Shown in pieces: positions 10,691 to 17,300 of a DNA stretch of 64,000 nucleotides; position 1 is the stretch's first letter; each line of letters starts with the position of its first letter. A program made the translations under genes and the position numbers. Under the pieces are notes generated by a model. That model made no database searches and had not been told where the DNA came from. It worked only from the letters and a program-made list of their open reading frames with translations. Origin of the DNA: Cellulomonas sp. Root485 (GTDB lineage Bacteria; Actinomycetota; Actinomycetes; Actinomycetales; Cellulomonadaceae). The stretch is taken from positions 547,789-611,788 of the forward strand of contig NZ_LMFC01000001.1 in assembly GCF_001426705.1 (NCBI RefSeq), in the 5' to 3' direction.

Positions 10691-10794
10691 GGTGGGCCAC
10701 GGAGCGGTCCTGGGCGAGCCGCTCGGCGTGTCTTCGTCCGGTTGCTCCCGTCGCGCCTGATTGCGGTCCCGTGCGCAGGCTCCGCCGCCGCCGC

Positions 10795-10800
10795 GTACGG
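10795..10800 (+). promoter_or_regulatory. Probable -10 element of nudC
   Basis: TACGGT lies eight bases before the GTG at 10809, compatible with a leaderless or nearly leaderless transcript divergent from the phosphotransferase gene. Confidence 0.35.
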
Positions 10801-10808
10801 TGACCGGC

Positions 10809-11789
10809 GTGATCGTTCCGGATGACCTGCCGCTGTCCCGTGCCGGTGTCGACCGTGCTGCTCTCTCGCGGACCGACGACGGGTTCGTCGCCGCCGCGCT
10901 GACCGACGACGCGACCCGCGTGCTGCTCGTGTGCGACGGCGCGGTCGTCACCACGACGGGCTCGCGGGTGGCGCTGCTGCCGCCGTCCGAGGTCCGGGTG
11001 CCCGCGTCGGACGACGACGGCTGGCTCCTGCTCGGTCGTGGTGAGGATGGCGAGACGTACCTCGCCCTGCGGGTCCCGGACCGCCGGCCGGCGCCCCGGG
11101 TGGGGGAGGCGTCCGACGTCCTGGTCCACGCGGTACCGACCGAGGTCGGACCCCCGACCGCCTCGGGGCTTCCCGACGGGCTGACGTGGACGCCGCTGCG
11201 GGACATCGGTGCGGACCTGACCGCGCACGAGGCGGGACTGGCCACCACCGCCGTCGCGCTCGACGCCTGGCACGCCCGGCACCCGCGGTGCCCGCGCTGC
11301 GGTGCGCGGACCCGGGTCGCCCAGTCCGGCTGGACCCGGGTGTGCGTCGACGACGGATCGGAGCACTACCCGCGCACCGACCCCGCCGTGATCATGGCGG
11401 TCGTGGACGCCGACGACCGGATCCTGCTCGGGCACGCGGCGCACTGGCCGGCCGGGCGGTGGTCGACGCTCGCGGGCTTCGTGGAGGCGGGGGAGTCGCT
11501 CGAGCACGCCGTGCGCCGCGAGGTGGCCGAGGAGACCGGGGTGCTCGTGGGTGAGGTCTCCTACCGGGGGAGCCAGCCGTGGCCGTTCCCGGCGTCGCTC
11601 ATGATCGGCTTCCGCGCCCACGCGCTCTCCACGGACGTGACGGTGGACGGCGTCGAGCTCACGGAGGCGCGCTGGTTCTCCCGCGACGAGCTCGCCGAGG
11701 CTGTGCGGTCGGGCGACGTGATCCCGCCGGGACGCGCGTCGATCGCGCGGGCGCTGGTCGAGGAGTGGTTCGGGGGAACGCTCAGCTGA
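10809..11789 (+). CDS. nudC: NAD(+)/NADH pyrophosphatase, NUDIX family
   Basis: About 326 residues. A NudC-type N-terminal domain is followed by a zinc ribbon (C161, C164, C179) and a complete Nudix box starting at G223 (GFVEAGESL, then REVAEETGV), with the NudC-specific SQPWPFP motif after it. The enzyme hydrolyses NADH, NAD or NAD-capped RNA to NMN(H) and AMP. The fourth zinc ligand expected three residues after C179 is Asp182, so the metal site is C3D or lost. The GTG at 10809 is preferred, with a -10-like TACGGT just upstream; GTG at 10800 is an alternative. It converges with mycoredoxin, overlapping by eight bases. Confidence 0.9.
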   Translation: MIVPDDLPLSRAGVDRAALSRTDDGFVAAALTDDATRVLLVCDGAVVTTTGSRVALLPPSEVRVPASDDDGWLLLGRGEDGETYLALRVPDRRPAPRVGEASDVLVHAVPTEVGPPTASGLPDGLTWTPLRDIGADLTAHEAGLATTAVALDAWHARHPRCPRCGARTRVAQSGWTRVCVDDGSEHYPRTDPAVIMAVVDADDRILLGHAAHWPAGRWSTLAGFVEAGESLEHAVRREVAEETGVLVGEVSYRGSQPWPFPASLMIGFRAHALSTDVTVDGVELTEARWFSRDELAEAVRSGDVIPPGRASIARALVEEWFGGTLS

Positions 11790-12042
11790 GCCGGGCGCGG
11801 ACCTGCGCGAGCGACGGGTTCGTCGCCGCGGACCCGTCGGGGAACACGACAGTGGGCACCGTCTGGTTCCCGTCGTTGAGGGACTCGACCAGGGACGCCG
11901 CGTCGGGGTGCTCCTCGATATTGACCTCGGTGTAGCCGATCCCCTCGGAGTCGAGCTGCGTCTTCAGCCGGCGGCAGTAGCCGCACCACGTCGTGGAGTA
12001 CATCGTGATGGTGCCGGCGTCGGGCAGGGTCTGCGTGGTCAT
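11782..12042 (-). CDS. mrx1: Mycoredoxin (glutaredoxin-like)
   Basis: 86 residues, a single thioredoxin-fold domain with the active-site motif WCGYC (C20, C23) and TVPTVVFPDG (cis-Pro region), both characteristic of actinobacterial mycoredoxin-1. It reduces mycothiol mixed disulfides. The start ATG has GAGGGA about seven bases upstream. In mycobacteria mrx1 likewise lies between nudC and uvrD2, which supports the symbol. Its 3' end overlaps nudC, so the two convergent transcripts are complementary there. Confidence 0.9.
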   Translation of the reverse strand: MTTQTLPDAGTITMYSTTWCGYCRRLKTQLDSEGIGYTEVNIEEHPDAASLVESLNDGNQTVPTVVFPDGSAATNPSLAQVRARLS

Positions 12043-12201
12043 CGGTCCCTCGGTGGTCGGAAGCGGTCGGGCGAGATCGTCGCCCAGGGCAGCAACGTTC
12101 ACACCCCTCGGCTTCTTCCCGCGTCGCGCGGACGGGTGACGGTACCCGATGTGCACAGGGTGGCGACGGGGGTGTCGGCCGGTGCTGAGAGACTGTGCCC
12201 G

Positions 12202-14202
12202 ATGTCCGCCGAAGCCCTCCTGGACGCCCTCGACCCCGAGCAGCGTGCCGTCGCCACCACGCTCCGGGGACCCGTGCGCGTGCTCGCCGGTGCGGGGACG
12301 GGCAAGACGCGGGCGATCACGCACCGCATCGCGTACGGCATCCAGGTCGGCGCCTACCGCCCGGCCAACGTGCTGGCCGTGACCTTCACCGCCCGCGCCG
12401 CCGGGGAGATGCGCACCCGTCTGCGGCTGCTGGGCGCGCCCGGTGTCCAGGCCCGCACGTTCCACGCGGCCGCGCTGCGGCAGCTCGGGTTCTTCTGGCC
12501 CAAGGTCGTGGGTGGTCCGCCGCCCCGGATCCTCGAGCAGAAGGTGAAGCTCGTCGCGCACGCGGCGCAGCTCGTCGGTCTGGAGACGGACCGGGAGAGC
12601 GTGCGGGACCTGGCCTCCGAGATCGAGTGGGCCAAGGTCAGCCTGGTCACCCCGGACGACTACGCGAAGGCCGCCGCCGCGACGGACCGCCCCGGGCCCG
12701 GCGGCACCGACCCGCAGTCGGTGGCCCGCCTGATGGCCGCCTACGAGTCCGCCAAGGACCAGCAGGGCGTCATCGACTTCGAGGACGTGCTGCTCCTGCT
12801 CGCGGCCATGCTGGCCGAGCGGCGCGACGTCGCCGACTCGGTGCGGGAGCAGTACCAGCACTTCGTGGTCGACGAGTACCAGGACGTCAGCCCGCTCCAG
12901 CAGTATCTGCTCGACCAGTGGCTGGGCGGCCGGCAGGAGCTGTGCGTCGTCGGTGACCCGAGCCAGACCATCTACTCGTTCGCCGGCGCGTCGGCCCACC
13001 ACCTCACGACGTTCACCAGGACGTACCCGCGCGCGACGACGGTCGAGCTCGTCCGGGACTACCGCTCCACCCCGCAGGTGGTGTCGCTGGCCAACCACGT
13101 GATGCACGCGTCGCGCAAGGCAGGCGGACCGGTGCCGCTGGAGCTGCGGGCGCAACGGCCCGACGGGCCCGACGTCTCCTACGTGACCTATCCCGACGAC
13201 GATGCGGAGGCCGCGGGCGTCACCGACGCGATCGCGGCGCTGGTCCGTGGGGGCGTGCCGGCGGCCGAGATCGCGGTGCTGTTCCGGACCAACGTGCAGT
13301 CGGAGGCGTTCGAGGCGGCGCTGGCGGACCGGGGGATCGCGTACCAGGTGCGCGGGAACGCCCGCTTCTTCGCTCGTGCGGACGTGCGCAAGGCGATGGT
13401 GCTGCTGCGGGGCGGGGCGCGCTCCGCAGACCCGGGGACGCCCATGCCGGAGTCCGTCCGGGACATCCTGCGCAGCGCGGGCTGGACGGATGCTCCGCCG
13501 GAGGGCCGGGGAGCGAGCCGCGAGCGCTGGGACGCGCTGCAGGCACTCGTGTCGCTGGCCGACGCCCTCGCTGCAGCCCCCCCGACGGGCGACGGGCCGC
13601 CCACCGTCGCGGACCTCGTCGCCGAGCTCGACGAGCGTGCGGCGGCTCAGCACGCGCCGACCGTCGAAGGCGTGACGCTCGCGTCGCTGCACGCCGCCAA
13701 GGGTCTCGAGTGGGACGCGGTGTTCCTCGTGGGGCTGTCGGACGGTCTCCTGCCGACGGTCCAGGCGCAGACGGACGCGACCGTGGCCGAGGAGCGGCGC
13801 CTGCTCTACGTCGGGATCACCCGCGCGCGCGAGCACCTGCAGCTGTCGTACTCCCGCGCCCGCCATCCTCGGGCGCGGGCGAGCCGAGGGGTGTCGCGGT
13901 TCCTCACGGACCTGTGGCCCGACGAGCGCCGTCGGCCGGGCGTCCCGCGGCGCGATCTCGACGTGCGCCAGCAGGCGGTGGTCGACGGCCTGACCGCCTG
14001 GCGCGACGCGCACGCGGCGGAGCTGCGTCGCCAGCCCGCGTCGGTGCTGACCAGCGCGACCATCCGCGCGATCGCGGAACGGTGCCCCGGCACGCTCGAG
14101 GAGCTCGGCGCGGTCCGTGGCGTCGGTCCGATGACTCTCGCGGACATCGGCGAGGACGTGCTGGCGGCGGTGCGCGCGACCGTGCGAGCGCCCGCTCGTT
14201 GA
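12202..14202 (+). CDS. uvrD2: ATP-dependent DNA helicase UvrD2 (with HRDC domain)
   Basis: 666 residues. SF1A helicase with Walker A GAGTGKTR (K35), Walker B DEYQD (from D224), GDPSQTIYSFAGA, and motif VI LLYVGITRAREHLQLSY. A C-terminal HRDC domain (about residues 585-660, LTSATIRAIAERCPGTLEEL) identifies the UvrD2 subtype. The tetracysteine element described between the helicase core and HRDC in the mycobacterial enzyme is not visible: the linker has no Cys cluster. The start is the ATG at 12202; upstream frame is open but overlaps the divergent mrx1 promoter. It probably acts in DNA repair and replication restart. Confidence 0.92.
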   Translation: MSAEALLDALDPEQRAVATTLRGPVRVLAGAGTGKTRAITHRIAYGIQVGAYRPANVLAVTFTARAAGEMRTRLRLLGAPGVQARTFHAAALRQLGFFWPKVVGGPPPRILEQKVKLVAHAAQLVGLETDRESVRDLASEIEWAKVSLVTPDDYAKAAAATDRPGPGGTDPQSVARLMAAYESAKDQQGVIDFEDVLLLLAAMLAERRDVADSVREQYQHFVVDEYQDVSPLQQYLLDQWLGGRQELCVVGDPSQTIYSFAGASAHHLTTFTRTYPRATTVELVRDYRSTPQVVSLANHVMHASRKAGGPVPLELRAQRPDGPDVSYVTYPDDDAEAAGVTDAIAALVRGGVPAAEIAVLFRTNVQSEAFEAALADRGIAYQVRGNARFFARADVRKAMVLLRGGARSADPGTPMPESVRDILRSAGWTDAPPEGRGASRERWDALQALVSLADALAAAPPTGDGPPTVADLVAELDERAAAQHAPTVEGVTLASLHAAKGLEWDAVFLVGLSDGLLPTVQAQTDATVAEERRLLYVGITRAREHLQLSYSRARHPRARASRGVSRFLTDLWPDERRRPGVPRRDLDVRQQAVVDGLTAWRDAHAAELRRQPASVLTSATIRAIAERCPGTLEELGAVRGVGPMTLADIGEDVLAAVRATVRAPAR

Positions 14203-14234
14203 GCCGATCGGGCGATGGCAGAAACTCGTCGGCG

Positions 14235-14281
14235 AAAGTTCGTTTATTCGGTTGTCCCCCGTGCAAAGCCAGTTCTAGTCT
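14235..14281 (+). promoter_or_regulatory. whiB7 promoter with AT-rich activator element
   Basis: TTGTCC (14252-14257) and TAGTCT (14276-14281) are separated by 18 bases and give a good -35/-10 pair in an intergenic gap. Immediately upstream lies an unusually AT-rich stretch for this genome (14235-14250, containing GTTTATTCG). WhiB7 of mycobacteria recognises an AT-rich element just upstream of the -35 box through its AT-hook, so autoactivation is likely. Predicted transcription start is near 14288, giving a leader of about 390 nt. Confidence 0.7.
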
Positions 14282-14348
14282 GGGCGACGTCCTTGTAGAG
14301 GGACCGCGCCGACAGGCGAGGGTCCGAACCGGAGAGGGGGTGGGTGCA

Positions 14349-14537
14349 TTGAAGAACCAGATGATCGACACGGCGAACGCTCACGCGTTCCTGCCGCGAT
14401 CCGTCGCGCCCACCACGTTCCGGTTCCAGGGGATCGCTCTGCCCATCGGCGGCAGCGCCCTCGAGCCGATCGGCGGGTCGAAGCGTCGCACGGCGACCGA
14501 TCCCCGCACGTACCTGATCCGGACTCCCATGATCTGA
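14349..14537 (+). CDS. Upstream leader ORF (uORF) of whiB7
   Basis: A 62-residue frame starts at TTG (14349) with AGGGGG eight bases upstream and stops at 14535-14537; an in-frame ATG (14361) could also start it. It contains FRFQGIALPIGGS and ends TYLIRTPMI. It lies inside the whiB7 leader, and its last codons (14520-14527) are complementary to the 5' arm of the terminator that follows. This is the arrangement expected for ribosome-mediated attenuation: slow or stalled translation of the uORF frees the antiterminator and allows whiB7 transcription. The peptide itself is probably not a functional protein. Confidence 0.7.
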   Translation: MKNQMIDTANAHAFLPRSVAPTTFRFQGIALPIGGSALEPIGGSKRRTATDPRTYLIRTPMI

Positions 14538-14567
14538 CCTCGAACGAGGCACAGGCCGCGGAGTCCG
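14520..14567 (+). promoter_or_regulatory. Antiterminator pairing in the whiB7 leader
   Basis: CGGACTCC at 14520-14527, inside the last uORF codons, is perfectly complementary to GGAGTCCG at 14560-14567, which forms part of the ascending arm of the terminator hairpin. The two structures cannot coexist, so this 8-bp helix is a natural antiterminator. A small hairpin (14538-14549, arms CCTCG/CGAGG) lies between. Confidence 0.65.
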
Positions 14568-14594
14568 AACTCGGACCCGCGGCCTTTCTGTTCT
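14553..14594 (+). terminator. Intrinsic terminator/attenuator upstream of whiB7
   Basis: Outer stem 14553-14561 with 14577-14585 (9 bp), inner stem 1463-67 region (14563-14567) with 14572-14576 (5 bp), one bulged A and a tetraloop, followed by the T-rich run TTTCTGTTCT. It lies between the uORF stop and the whiB7 start and is one of the few hairpins in the window with a proper T tract. Confidence 0.85.
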
Positions 14595-14676
14595 CCCGAT
14601 GAGTCGGGTGAACGGGTTGGCAGTCGGTCCGGCACCGACGCAACACGCTCACCAGCAAGGACATCAGGAGGACATC

Positions 14677-15030
14677 GTGCGGCTCACGACGCTGCTCGAC
14701 ACGGTGAACCATGGCGGATCCGGCCCGTGGCCCGTCACCGACAGCACTTCGACGACCGACGACCGCCAGACGTTCGACCAGCTCGTCGCCGACTTCATCC
14801 CGTGCCGGGCGGGCGACCCCGAGCTCTGGTTCGCCGAGCGGACCGCCGAGGTCGAGCAGGCCAAGGCCCTGTGCCGCGAGTGCCCGCTGATGGAGGGGTG
14901 CCTGGCAGGCGCCATCGACCGCGCCGAGCCGTGGGGCGTGTGGGGTGGCGAGGTGTTCGTCGGCGGTGTGGTGGTCGCGACCAAGCGTGGTCGTGGTCGC
15001 CCCCGGAAGAACGCGGCCCCGGCCGCCTGA
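14677..15030 (+). CDS. whiB7: WhiB-family redox/antibiotic-resistance regulator WhiB7
   Basis: 117 residues from GTG with AGGAGG at ideal spacing. It has the four iron-sulfur ligands C43, C66, C69 and C75, the WhiB turn EPWGVWGGE, and a C-terminal AT-hook RGRGRPRK that is specific to WhiB7. The regulator binds sigma region 4 and activates intrinsic antibiotic-resistance genes in response to ribosome inhibition. It is preceded by an autoregulatory-type promoter, a uORF and an attenuator, and sits next to uvrD2 as in mycobacteria. Together these make the assignment secure. Confidence 0.95.
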   Translation: MRLTTLLDTVNHGGSGPWPVTDSTSTTDDRQTFDQLVADFIPCRAGDPELWFAERTAEVEQAKALCRECPLMEGCLAGAIDRAEPWGVWGGEVFVGGVVVATKRGRGRPRKNAAPAA

Positions 15031-15046
15031 CGGCGGCAAGGGCGAC

Positions 15047-16066
15047 TCAGCCCGGCGCGCCCACCAGCGACGCCGGGAGGGCGGTGCACCCGCACTCGGG
15101 GTGCACCGCCCACGTGCGTCTGCGCGGCACCGCGTCCGGCTGTGCCACCTCGAGCGTGGTGCCCGGTGCGAGGCCGGGGACCCGGTCGAGGTGCGCGAGC
15201 ACGGCCGCGGCACCGAGACCGGCGCAGACTGCGGCGACCAGTCCCGACTCGTCGGCGACGTCCCCGGCGTGCAGCTGCGCGGCGATCGTGGGCCATGACG
15301 CGTCCGAGTCGGTGCGGTGCAGGTCGAGGCAGCGCAGGCACGGGCCGGCGCCGGGCACGACGAACGGGCCGACGACCGTGTCGGCCTCGCGCACGACGAC
15401 GCCGAGGTGGGTGATGCCACCGGCGACGAGGACCGGGCCGCGCCGGGGGTCCGCCACCCTGTCCTCGACGAGGACCACGACGTCCGGTGCGCGGTCCGAG
15501 GCGGTCGAGACGTGCGGGGCGACGTCGCGCAGCAGCCTCGCCGTGACGTGCTCGCGCACCGAGCCGGCGTCGGCCCACCGGTAGCCGCACACGCCGACGT
15601 CCGTCGAGCGCACCGGCCGTTCGTCGTCGACCAGCACGGTGCCGACCCCCGCCGCCGCGAGTCCGACCGCGATGCCGAGCCCGGTCGGTCCGAGCCCCAG
15701 GACCGCGACGACCCTGTCCGCGCGCGCCCGGACCACGTCCGCACCGTTCCCGTCAGCGCGCAGGAGGGACCACACTGCCGCGTCGACCGACGCCGGTCCG
15801 CGAAGGTCGGCCCTGGACGGACCGGCCGTGGTGAGCCGCGCCTCGACCAGCACGTCGACGAGCGCACGCACCCGGTCCGGCTCCACGTCGCGTCCGGCGA
15901 CGAGACGTGTGACCTCGGTCAGGTCCGTGCGCGTGTCCACGGACTGGAGCAGGTCCGCCTCGGCGGGGGTGAGGTCGGGCAGGCGGACGGCCCAGCGTGG
16001 GTCGGTGCCCACCTGGACCTCGGTGGCCGTGCGTCGCAGCACCCGCAGCCCGGCGCGCAGTCGCAT
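15047..16066 (-). CDS. ThiF/E1-like protein (TOMM leader-binding type)
   Basis: 339 residues. The N-terminal part (about 1-90) resembles the winged-helix precursor-recognition domain of TOMM cyclodehydratase partners. A Rossmann ThiF/MoeB core follows (VLGLGPTGLGIAVGLAAAGV, about residues 118-138), with a GPCLRCLDLHR motif and a C-terminal HPECGC that together could bind zinc. No cyclodehydratase, precursor peptide or dehydrogenase gene is nearby, so a housekeeping role is more likely than RiPP synthesis. The start ATG has AAGGGAG upstream. A comparable gene lies near whiB7 in other actinobacteria. It converges on whiB7. Confidence 0.75.
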   Translation of the reverse strand: MRLRAGLRVLRRTATEVQVGTDPRWAVRLPDLTPAEADLLQSVDTRTDLTEVTRLVAGRDVEPDRVRALVDVLVEARLTTAGPSRADLRGPASVDAAVWSLLRADGNGADVVRARADRVVAVLGLGPTGLGIAVGLAAAGVGTVLVDDERPVRSTDVGVCGYRWADAGSVREHVTARLLRDVAPHVSTASDRAPDVVVLVEDRVADPRRGPVLVAGGITHLGVVVREADTVVGPFVVPGAGPCLRCLDLHRTDSDASWPTIAAQLHAGDVADESGLVAAVCAGLGAAAVLAHLDRVPGLAPGTTLEVAQPDAVPRRRTWAVHPECGCTALPASLVGAPG

Positions 16067-16151
16067 GGGGCTCCCTTCAGGACGAGGGAGTCACTGTCGC
16101 AGCGTCGGCGGACACGCCGTGCCGGTCATCCACAGCCCCGGACATGCCGAA

Positions 16152-16177
16152 GGGCACCGTCCGGACGGACGATGCCC
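16152..16177 (-). terminator. Terminator hairpin after the DUF5679-type gene
   Basis: An 11-bp stem (one G-U pair in the minus-strand RNA) with a four-base loop lies 20 bases past the stop of the small zinc-ribbon gene and before the ThiF-like gene. There is only a weak T run. Confidence 0.65.
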
Positions 16178-16197
16178 TCGGGCGACGAGGAGAAAGC

Positions 16198-16356
16198 TCA
16201 GGCCTTGCCGAGGATCCGGTTGAGCTTGGTGCCGCAGACCGGACAGACGGCCTTGGCCATCCTGCGGCCAGACTCGGAGACGACGACGTCACCCTCCGCC
16301 TGGCGCTTCTCCTTGCACTTCACGCAGTAGAACTCGCCTGCATACGTCTCAGCCAT
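16198..16356 (-). CDS. DUF5679 small zinc-ribbon protein
   Basis: 52 residues with two CxxC knuckles, YCVKCKEKRQ and AVCPVCGTKLN, typical of the tiny actinobacterial DUF5679 family. The ATG at 16354-16356 has GAGGGAGG six bases upstream, an excellent ribosome binding site. The function is unknown; the double CxxC suggests a structural zinc. It forms its own unit ending at the hairpin at 16152-16177. Confidence 0.88.
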   Translation of the reverse strand: MAETYAGEFYCVKCKEKRQAEGDVVVSESGRRMAKAVCPVCGTKLNRILGKA

Positions 16357-16535
16357 GGTGCCCTCCCTCGGTGTCCTGCACCGGACCGGGAAACCGCCGG
16401 CCGGCGGCCGGGCGTGGTGGTGCTGCCACGTCCGCGCGGCTTTCACAGTAGTAGCCGAGGCGCCCACAGCCCGCGGAATCGTGCAGGACGCGCCGTGCGG
16501 CCACGGGTGAACGCGGGCGCGTGGGCCCTGCGCGC

Positions 16536-16541
16536 TAGCGT
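16536..16541 (+). promoter_or_regulatory. Leaderless -10 element of the YgjP-like gene
   Basis: TAGCGT followed by six bases and the GTG at 16548; there is no Shine-Dalgarno sequence. Confidence 0.5.
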
Positions 16542-16547
16542 TCTTCC

Positions 16548-17300
16548 GTGCAGCCCACGCAGGACCTGTCGCAGGTCGAGATCCGCCGCTCACGCAAGCG
16601 CGTGCGCACGGTGACGGCCTGGCGCGAGGGCGACCGGACGATCGTGGCCATCCCCGCGCGGTTCACGCGGGCGCAGGAGCACGAGTGGGTGCGCCGGATG
16701 CTGGCCCGGCTCGCGGCGCAGGAACGGCGGCGCCGACCGTCGGACGACGAGCTGATGTCGCGGGCGACGGACCTGTCCGCCAAGTACCTCGGCGGGCGGG
16801 CGCGGCCGACGACGGTCCGGTGGTCCACCAACCAGGGTCGGCGGTGGGGGTCCTGCACGCCGTCGGACGGCACCATCCGGATCTCCGACCGCGTGCGCGG
16901 GATGCCACGGTGGGTGCTCGACTACGTGCTGCTGCACGAGCTGGCGCACCTGCTGCACGCCGGGCACGGGCCGGAGTTCTGGGCGGAGCTCGACGCCTAC
17001 CCGCGCACCCTGCGCGCCCGCGGGTTCCTCGAGGGGTACGCGTACGCGGCGGAGCGTGGCGCGCACACCCCGCCCGGCGAACCTGGGGCCGACGACGACG
17101 TGGGGGACGCGGGCAGGGACGAGGTCGACGACGGCGGGATCGAGGAGCCGGACGGGGTCGTGGCCGACGAGGTGGACGTCGACGACTTCCCGTCCGACGA
17201 CGACACCGACGGCGGCCCGGTCGGTCAGCTGGAGCTGGAGCTCGACGACTGGGGTCCGAGCACCACAGCTGAGACCGCGGAGCGCGGTCGACCGACGTGA
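16548..17300 (+). CDS. YgjP/SprT-like zinc metallopeptidase (DUF45)
   Basis: 250 residues. The core contains WGSCTPSDGTIRIS and the zinc-binding HELAHLLHAGHGPEFW (HExxH plus a downstream His), as in the YgjP/WLM-type metallopeptidases. The C-terminal 80 residues are a very acidic, low-complexity tail (Asp/Glu-rich). GTG start at 16548 with TAGCGT six bases upstream implies leaderless expression. The substrate is unknown; the same family is found near uvrD2 in related genomes. Confidence 0.88.
   Translation: MQPTQDLSQVEIRRSRKRVRTVTAWREGDRTIVAIPARFTRAQEHEWVRRMLARLAAQERRRRPSDDELMSRATDLSAKYLGGRARPTTVRWSTNQGRRWGSCTPSDGTIRISDRVRGMPRWVLDYVLLHELAHLLHAGHGPEFWAELDAYPRTLRARGFLEGYAYAAERGAHTPPGEPGADDDVGDAGRDEVDDGGIEEPDGVVADEVDVDDFPSDDDTDGGPVGQLELELDDWGPSTTAETAERGRPT

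Follow-up and report, generated by a model that had tools for sequence, protein, structure and literature searches.

The whiB7 locus and its leader

The window (the whole stretch of 64,000 nucleotides that was analysed) comes from an actinobacterial genome of 4.65 Mb and carries a whiB7 gene preceded by a leader, in which we distinguish the following features.

14240..14249, plus strand: AT-rich stretch TCGTTTATTC ahead of the -35 region (by-eye AT-rich decamers in 71 leaders)
14252..14257, plus strand: -35 region, TTGTCC inside GGTTGTCC (conserved promoter pattern)
14276..14281, plus strand: -10 region TAGTCT, after an 18-nt spacer (conserved promoter pattern)
14326..14347, plus strand: 5' arm of hairpin P1, holding the uORF ribosome-binding site (folds, covariation and permutation tests in the genus)
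14349..14537, plus strand: uORF of 62 codons, from TTG at 14349 to TGA (ORF call; related open frames in relatives)
14406..14426, plus strand: 3' arm of P1, ending at the conserved element (folds, covariation, permutation tests)
14427..14444, plus strand: conserved element CAGGGGATCGCTCTGCCC, pause-like, with T-3 at 14438, -1 at 14440 and G+1 at 14441 (conservation; putative pause function)
14520..14527, plus strand: antiterminator 5' arm CGGACTCC, in the last uORF codons (folds, complement and conservation tests)
14538..14549, plus strand: small hairpin just past the uORF stop, nested within the antiterminator (fold)
14554..14594, plus strand: terminator, a hairpin at 14554-14584 with a bulged A at 14562, followed by the T-tract TTTCTGTTCT at 14585-14594 (fold, covariation)
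14560..14567, plus strand: antiterminator 3' arm GGAGTCCG, overlapping the terminator 5' arm (fold, complement test)
14677..15030, plus strand: whiB7, GTG start, 117 aa (Pfam PF02467, 4.6e-15; GVWGG motif; RGRGRP AT-hook; alignment A1)

The gene downstream of the leader is identified as whiB7 by its WhiB domain, its GVWGG motif and its AT-hook, all of which are present; NCBIfam assigns no family to the product. Its GTG codon at 14677 is preceded by the Shine-Dalgarno sequence AGGAGG, which begins at 14666. The closest named WhiB7 loci are those of Cellulomonas (C. terrae, 95% over WhiB7), which is most likely the genus of this DNA. A WhiB-type match was found in all 58 genomes surveyed, with strong whiB7-like matches (E of 5.8e-27 or better) in every one of the 36 from the genus and in 12 of the remaining 22. 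The upstream neighbour is a UvrD-type helicase with an HRDC domain (PF00580, PF13361, PF00570), which we count in favour of the attenuator reading set out below, and the downstream neighbour is a ThiF-like gene on the opposite strand. Farther out, we judged by eye from translations that a glutaredoxin-like ORF with a CGYC motif (about 11782-12045, minus strand) adjoins a NUDIX-like ORF (10761-11789, plus strand); a small protein with a C-terminal DUF5679 match is encoded at 16201-16593 on the minus strand.

The initial annotation of this DNA had given the order promoter, 62-codon uORF, terminator and whiB7, and each of these parts lies where it had been placed, while the hairpin P1 over the ribosome-binding site and the conserved element within the uORF had been overlooked. 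The uORF, a predicted ORF with alternative in-frame starts at GTG 14340 and ATG 14361, ends 16 nt before the terminator hairpin. It lacks a stretch of regulatory codons specifying a single amino acid (by hand count, 7 of 62 codons are for alanine, and these are scattered). The impression that it is unlike the mycobacterial uORF was right for the eight Mycobacterium leaders compared (L075, L080, L082, L090, L091, L103, L121 and L122), whose uORFs look alanine-rich, as that of the window does not. Six of the eight have VGVA near the uORF N-terminus, and all eight have the terminator arm GGCCACGGA.

The promoter is recognizable from its conservation. Among 209 leaders with a terminator, GGTTG[TC] followed after 16-19 nt by TANNNT was found in 71, Mycobacterium and Nocardia among them, and in none of 209 reverse-strand controls; AT-rich sequence precedes these 71 sites although the pattern does not demand it. 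In the window this sequence is TCGTTTATTC (14240..14249), which we presume is probably the binding site for WhiB7 autoregulation, and transcription would be expected to start near 14288. A generic promoter and terminator scan listed neither at the whiB7 leader, presumably on account of the bulged A in the stem and of boxes that depart from the E. coli type.

A terminator and an antiterminator that share one arm

A Rho-independent terminator, G+C-rich but with a weak T-tract, stands before whiB7, and its 5' arm can be engaged by the end of the uORF. The segment CGGACTCC, 8-15 nt upstream of the uORF stop codon, and GGAGTCCG are exact reverse complements, which bears out the complementarity between the last uORF codons and the terminator arm that had been noted at the outset. 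The two predicted states depend on how much of the RNA is present: a segment that stops at 14570 (14513-14570) forms the 8-bp antiterminator at -23.9 kcal/mol, and one extended to 14590 (14513-14590) forms the terminator at -39 kcal/mol (z -5.4). An Rfam search of 13000-16500 gave 0 matches up to E=1. In the single sequence the 8-nt complement is marginal, being reached in 4 of 100 shuffles and, by duplex energy, in 6% of 200, so that conservation across relatives has to decide.

For this we used alignment A2, whose 36 segments comprise 34 of the genus and two taken from assemblies of related Actinomycetales, and counts that need no alignment. Compensatory changes and loss of pairing in close relatives had been named beforehand as a check and as a refuting outcome, respectively, and here the terminator and the antiterminator differ. 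The terminator is kept (92.9% of cells paired) and covaries, with a score reached by 1 of 500 shuffles. The antiterminator has 79.5% of cells paired, and slid versions do not exceed 53.1%, but it does not beat the shuffle control on A2, neither by cells paired (53/500) nor by covariation score (93/500); its further pair types were reached in 19 of 500 shuffles. The alignment-free count, in which the 83 nt preceding a GGAGTC arm were scanned, is clearer: GGACTCC or GACTCCG is kept in 24 of 33 Cellulomonas leaders, against 1.9% of shuffles, and in 13 of 15 leaders from Promicromonosporaceae, Cellulosimicrobium, Oerskovia and Sanguibacter, against 1.7%. The window belongs to the leaders with GGACTCC, which lies 33-37 nt upstream of the terminator core; GACTCCG lies 41-55 nt upstream of it, and the antiterminator register therefore differs between clades. 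Relatives also have, as judged by eye, hairpins that resemble 14538-14549 but differ from it in sequence.

Six of 39 Cellulomonas leaders (L006, L029, L033-L036) fall outside this count, no GGAGTC arm having been found in them. Altered antiterminator arms appear to be matched in part by altered partners: ranked among 14, the leader's own arm comes first in L033 and L034, second in L036 and fourth in L006 and L029. Own arms have a small advantage over swapped ones (-18.22 vs -17.23). The longest exact complement averages 6.19 nt over 208 leaders, against 5.17 nt in shuffles, yet only nine of the 39 Cellulomonas leaders, and 39 of all 208, attain p<=0.05; with 4 of 27 Streptomyces, 0 of 10 Nocardia and 1 of 5 Mycobacterium leaders at that level, we claim no antiterminator register for these three genera. 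One of the leader comparisons left out L003, L021, L032 and L052 as duplicates and L035 for want of a pattern match.

It might be argued that the terminator is constitutive and the uORF incidental, whiB7 being controlled by its promoter only. The terminator is indeed very stable, as this would have it; however, relatives carry related uORFs and retain the antiterminator segment, and control in other actinobacteria depends on the uORF (PMC10727445 and PMC11550727, both in excerpt), so that we regard a constitutive terminator as highly improbable. We are instead confident that the leader is a ribosome-worked transcription attenuator of whiB7, which is the best reading because of its anatomy, its conservation in relatives and the occurrence of the same mechanism in other actinobacteria. 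The same three lines support the earlier proposal that the position of the ribosome on the uORF switches between terminator and antiterminator. With the parts of the switch, its predicted folding and its conservation established, we infer its direction and its inducing signal from published whiB7/wblC work. RNA polymerase would start near 14288. A ribosome that reaches the uORF stop would cover CGGACTCC, the terminator would form, and transcription would end near 14590; if translation were slowed or blocked before the end of the uORF, CGGACTCC would pair with GGAGTCCG, no terminator would form and whiB7 would be transcribed. WhiB7 would then probably reinforce its own promoter.

A predicted hairpin over the ribosome-binding site of the uORF

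In 37 Cellulomonas leaders the own arms of P1 pair at -26.84 kcal/mol, against -24.25 kcal/mol for permuted arms, a difference reached in 0 of 5000 permutations. Alignment A3 comprises 38 leaders, and 66.0% of its P1 cells are paired, a level attained by 0 of 500 shuffles and missed by slid versions, which do not exceed 45.3%; the covariation score was reached by 1 of 500 shuffles. In L023 and L024, GTGGCC/GGCCAC replaces GTGGG/CCCAC. Pairs changed on both sides are no more numerous on A3 than in shuffles (279/500), and RNAalifold on the same alignment gave seven pairs, four of them in P1, none of the four with double changes. Own arms were no better than permuted ones in Streptomyces (P 0.75) or Nocardia (P 0.52), and the mixed remaining leaders gave P 0.13. 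When 74 leaders were resampled with synonymous codons, P1 did better than the resampled sequences (p<=0.05) in 15.

A conserved element within the uORF

Directly 3' of P1 lies the 18-nt element CAGGGGATCGCTCTGCCC, and related uORFs carry CAG GG[G/C] NNN G[G/C]T [C/G]TG [T/C]CC at this place. Leaders were gathered by a peptide-pattern score of at least 4 (63 leaders, 58 non-redundant), so that positions fixed by the pattern are no evidence; third positions are not fixed by it. Among the 58, the third position is T in 57 at codon +4 and G in 58 at codon +5. In nine ORFs of the window GCT, ACT, AGT and GGT make up 3.2%, 1.0%, 0.9% and 18.8% of their codon sets, and the T at codon +4 is thus kept against codon usage, NNT codons being 1-19% of their sets; at codon +5 the options CTG and GTG make up 53% and 45% of theirs. 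This third-position conservation weakens an explanation of the element by the peptide only. A local hairpin within the element (CAGGG/CTCTG), considered by eye, would be disrupted in leaders that have GTG for CTG.

A matrix derived from Cellulomonas leaders alone, whose score within that genus (39 of 41) is by construction, was run on 114 leaders from elsewhere: 29 of them outscore every reverse-strand and shuffled control, and 25 of the 29 hold the match in frame. Some of these leaders are closely related, and they do not count as independent cases. A broader sample, 90 leaders drawn from 32 families with the window among them, has 11 leaders from nine families that score above all 180 controls, while 79 leaders and 23 families give no above-control match. 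All 11 have the element in frame with a candidate uORF, and in two it also overlaps a second open frame. The element was not detected in the eight Mycobacterium leaders. As a genome-wide motif it was discarded, with two matches in its own genome (G000) and one and three per strand for the reversed-pattern control. A similar element occurs in Promicromonosporaceae in another frame (above control in L065, L066 and L070, weak in L060 and L064). One leader comparison left out L036 and L053, which lack the element, and the duplicate L054. The element lies 69-87 nt from the presumed start codon in Cellulomonas, 81-96 nt in Streptomyces and 78-123 nt in Nocardia, and 102 to 339 nt from the terminator across these three genera.

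Polymerase pause, ribosome signal or initiation gate

With the T of [C/G]TG taken as the RNA 3' end, the conserved bases of the element correspond to G-11/G-10, T-3, Y-1 and G+1, and its sequence fits the elemental pause consensus of RNA polymerase. G-11 and T-3 belong to that consensus. So do G-10, Y-1 and G+1, and hairpins stand 10-13 nt upstream of stabilised pauses (PMC12288461, in excerpt); in the window 13 nt separate the end of P1 at 14426 from 14440, where the pause is proposed. Against a pause we count the report by Ju et al. that the pause sites of M. tuberculosis follow no strong consensus (PMC10937400, likewise in excerpt).

The element may serve to synchronise polymerase and ribosome. 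P1 and the pause-like element would hold the polymerase about 80-100 nt past the uORF start codon, while the first ribosome loads and then keeps pace. In trp attenuators a leader pause lets the first ribosome load. We hold this hypothesis less firmly than the attenuator reading. Extended to the wider group, it would mean that a timing device is common to many whiB7 leaders of actinobacteria: the ribosome-binding site of the uORF would be buried in a hairpin abutting a consensus polymerase pause, and the polymerase would wait about 80-110 nt past the uORF start for a ribosome to load, with promoter and terminator fixed and the antiterminator register drifting; we put this forward tentatively, as a conjecture that may well prove wrong. 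If it is true, drugs that block initiation or early elongation would be read out directly.

The main rival to a pause is a role at the level of the ribosome, in which the element would be a codon-specific slow site or would encode a nascent-peptide motif (QG[TIR][GA][LV][SP], mostly 23-41 codons into the uORF) that gives sensitivity to inhibitors. The frame of the above-control matches in both leader sets suits such a role, as do the rarity of NNT codons in this genome and the narrow distance to the start codon within Cellulomonas and within Streptomyces. Third positions are kept, however, while the amino acids vary (A/G/S/T; L/V), which is not expected of the peptide alone; the frame may persist by descent, since the uORF must stay open; and four of the 29 above-control leaders (L042, L065, L066 and L070) hold the match out of frame. 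We judge a ribosome-level role possible but doubtful. Another alternative does without polymerase pausing: P1 would be a gate for translation initiation only and the element a binding site for protein or RNA. A P1 arm does cover the Shine-Dalgarno sequence of the uORF, and the pause is a prediction from sequence; but T-3 and G+1 of the pause consensus coincide with the positions conserved against codon usage, and weaker, below-threshold matches (f34, f41, f43) swap CTG for GCG and so keep Y-1 and G+1. We consider this arrangement unlikely.

Comparison with known systems

Attenuation of whiB7/wblC by a uORF has been described in other actinobacteria, as excerpts of PMC10727445, PMC11550727, PMC4128351 and PMC13236596 indicate; that of PMC11550727 gives the same attenuation model, and that of PMC4128351 the case of M. 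bovis and M. marinum. As in the systems so excerpted, the window has a promoter, a uORF, a Rho-independent terminator, an antiterminator overlapping uORF and terminator, and whiB7 downstream. It differs from the attenuator of Mycobacterium in its uORF sequence, as judged from the eight leaders compared, and from the whiB7/wblC attenuator in that the antiterminator register varies between clades. Other papers cite Lee et al. (2022) and Burian & Thompson (2018) for this attenuator.

The attenuator is thus known in kind and the window is an added instance: where the initial annotation offered a mechanism for antibiotic-induced whiB7 in this lineage, the instance is what we add, the mechanism itself having already been published. 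A known antibiotic-sensing switch is in this way extended to Cellulomonas with comparative support. In the excerpts consulted from the whiB7/wblC literature we saw no description of P1 or the element, whose novelty is unproven. Antibiotic-induced stalling within the whiB7 uORF is stated in an excerpt of PMC12121999 to be not yet tested. The element and P1 name exact nucleotides at which to seek ribosome stalling or polymerase pausing.

In trp-type attenuators, as in this leader, the position of the ribosome picks terminator or antiterminator, and there may be a leader pause. The same holds for the ilvB1 attenuator of M. tuberculosis (PMC13236596, excerpt). Unlike these, the uORF of the window has no regulatory codon run, and the signal expected is general translation stress. 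Excerpted accounts of the uORF-controlled ABCF genes are5sc and tiaA (PMC12421871) and vmlR (PMC9226507) likewise present antibiotic-induced uORF attenuation, but the downstream gene here is a transcription factor, and the uORFs of are5sc and tiaA have 3 and 9 codons against 62 in the window.
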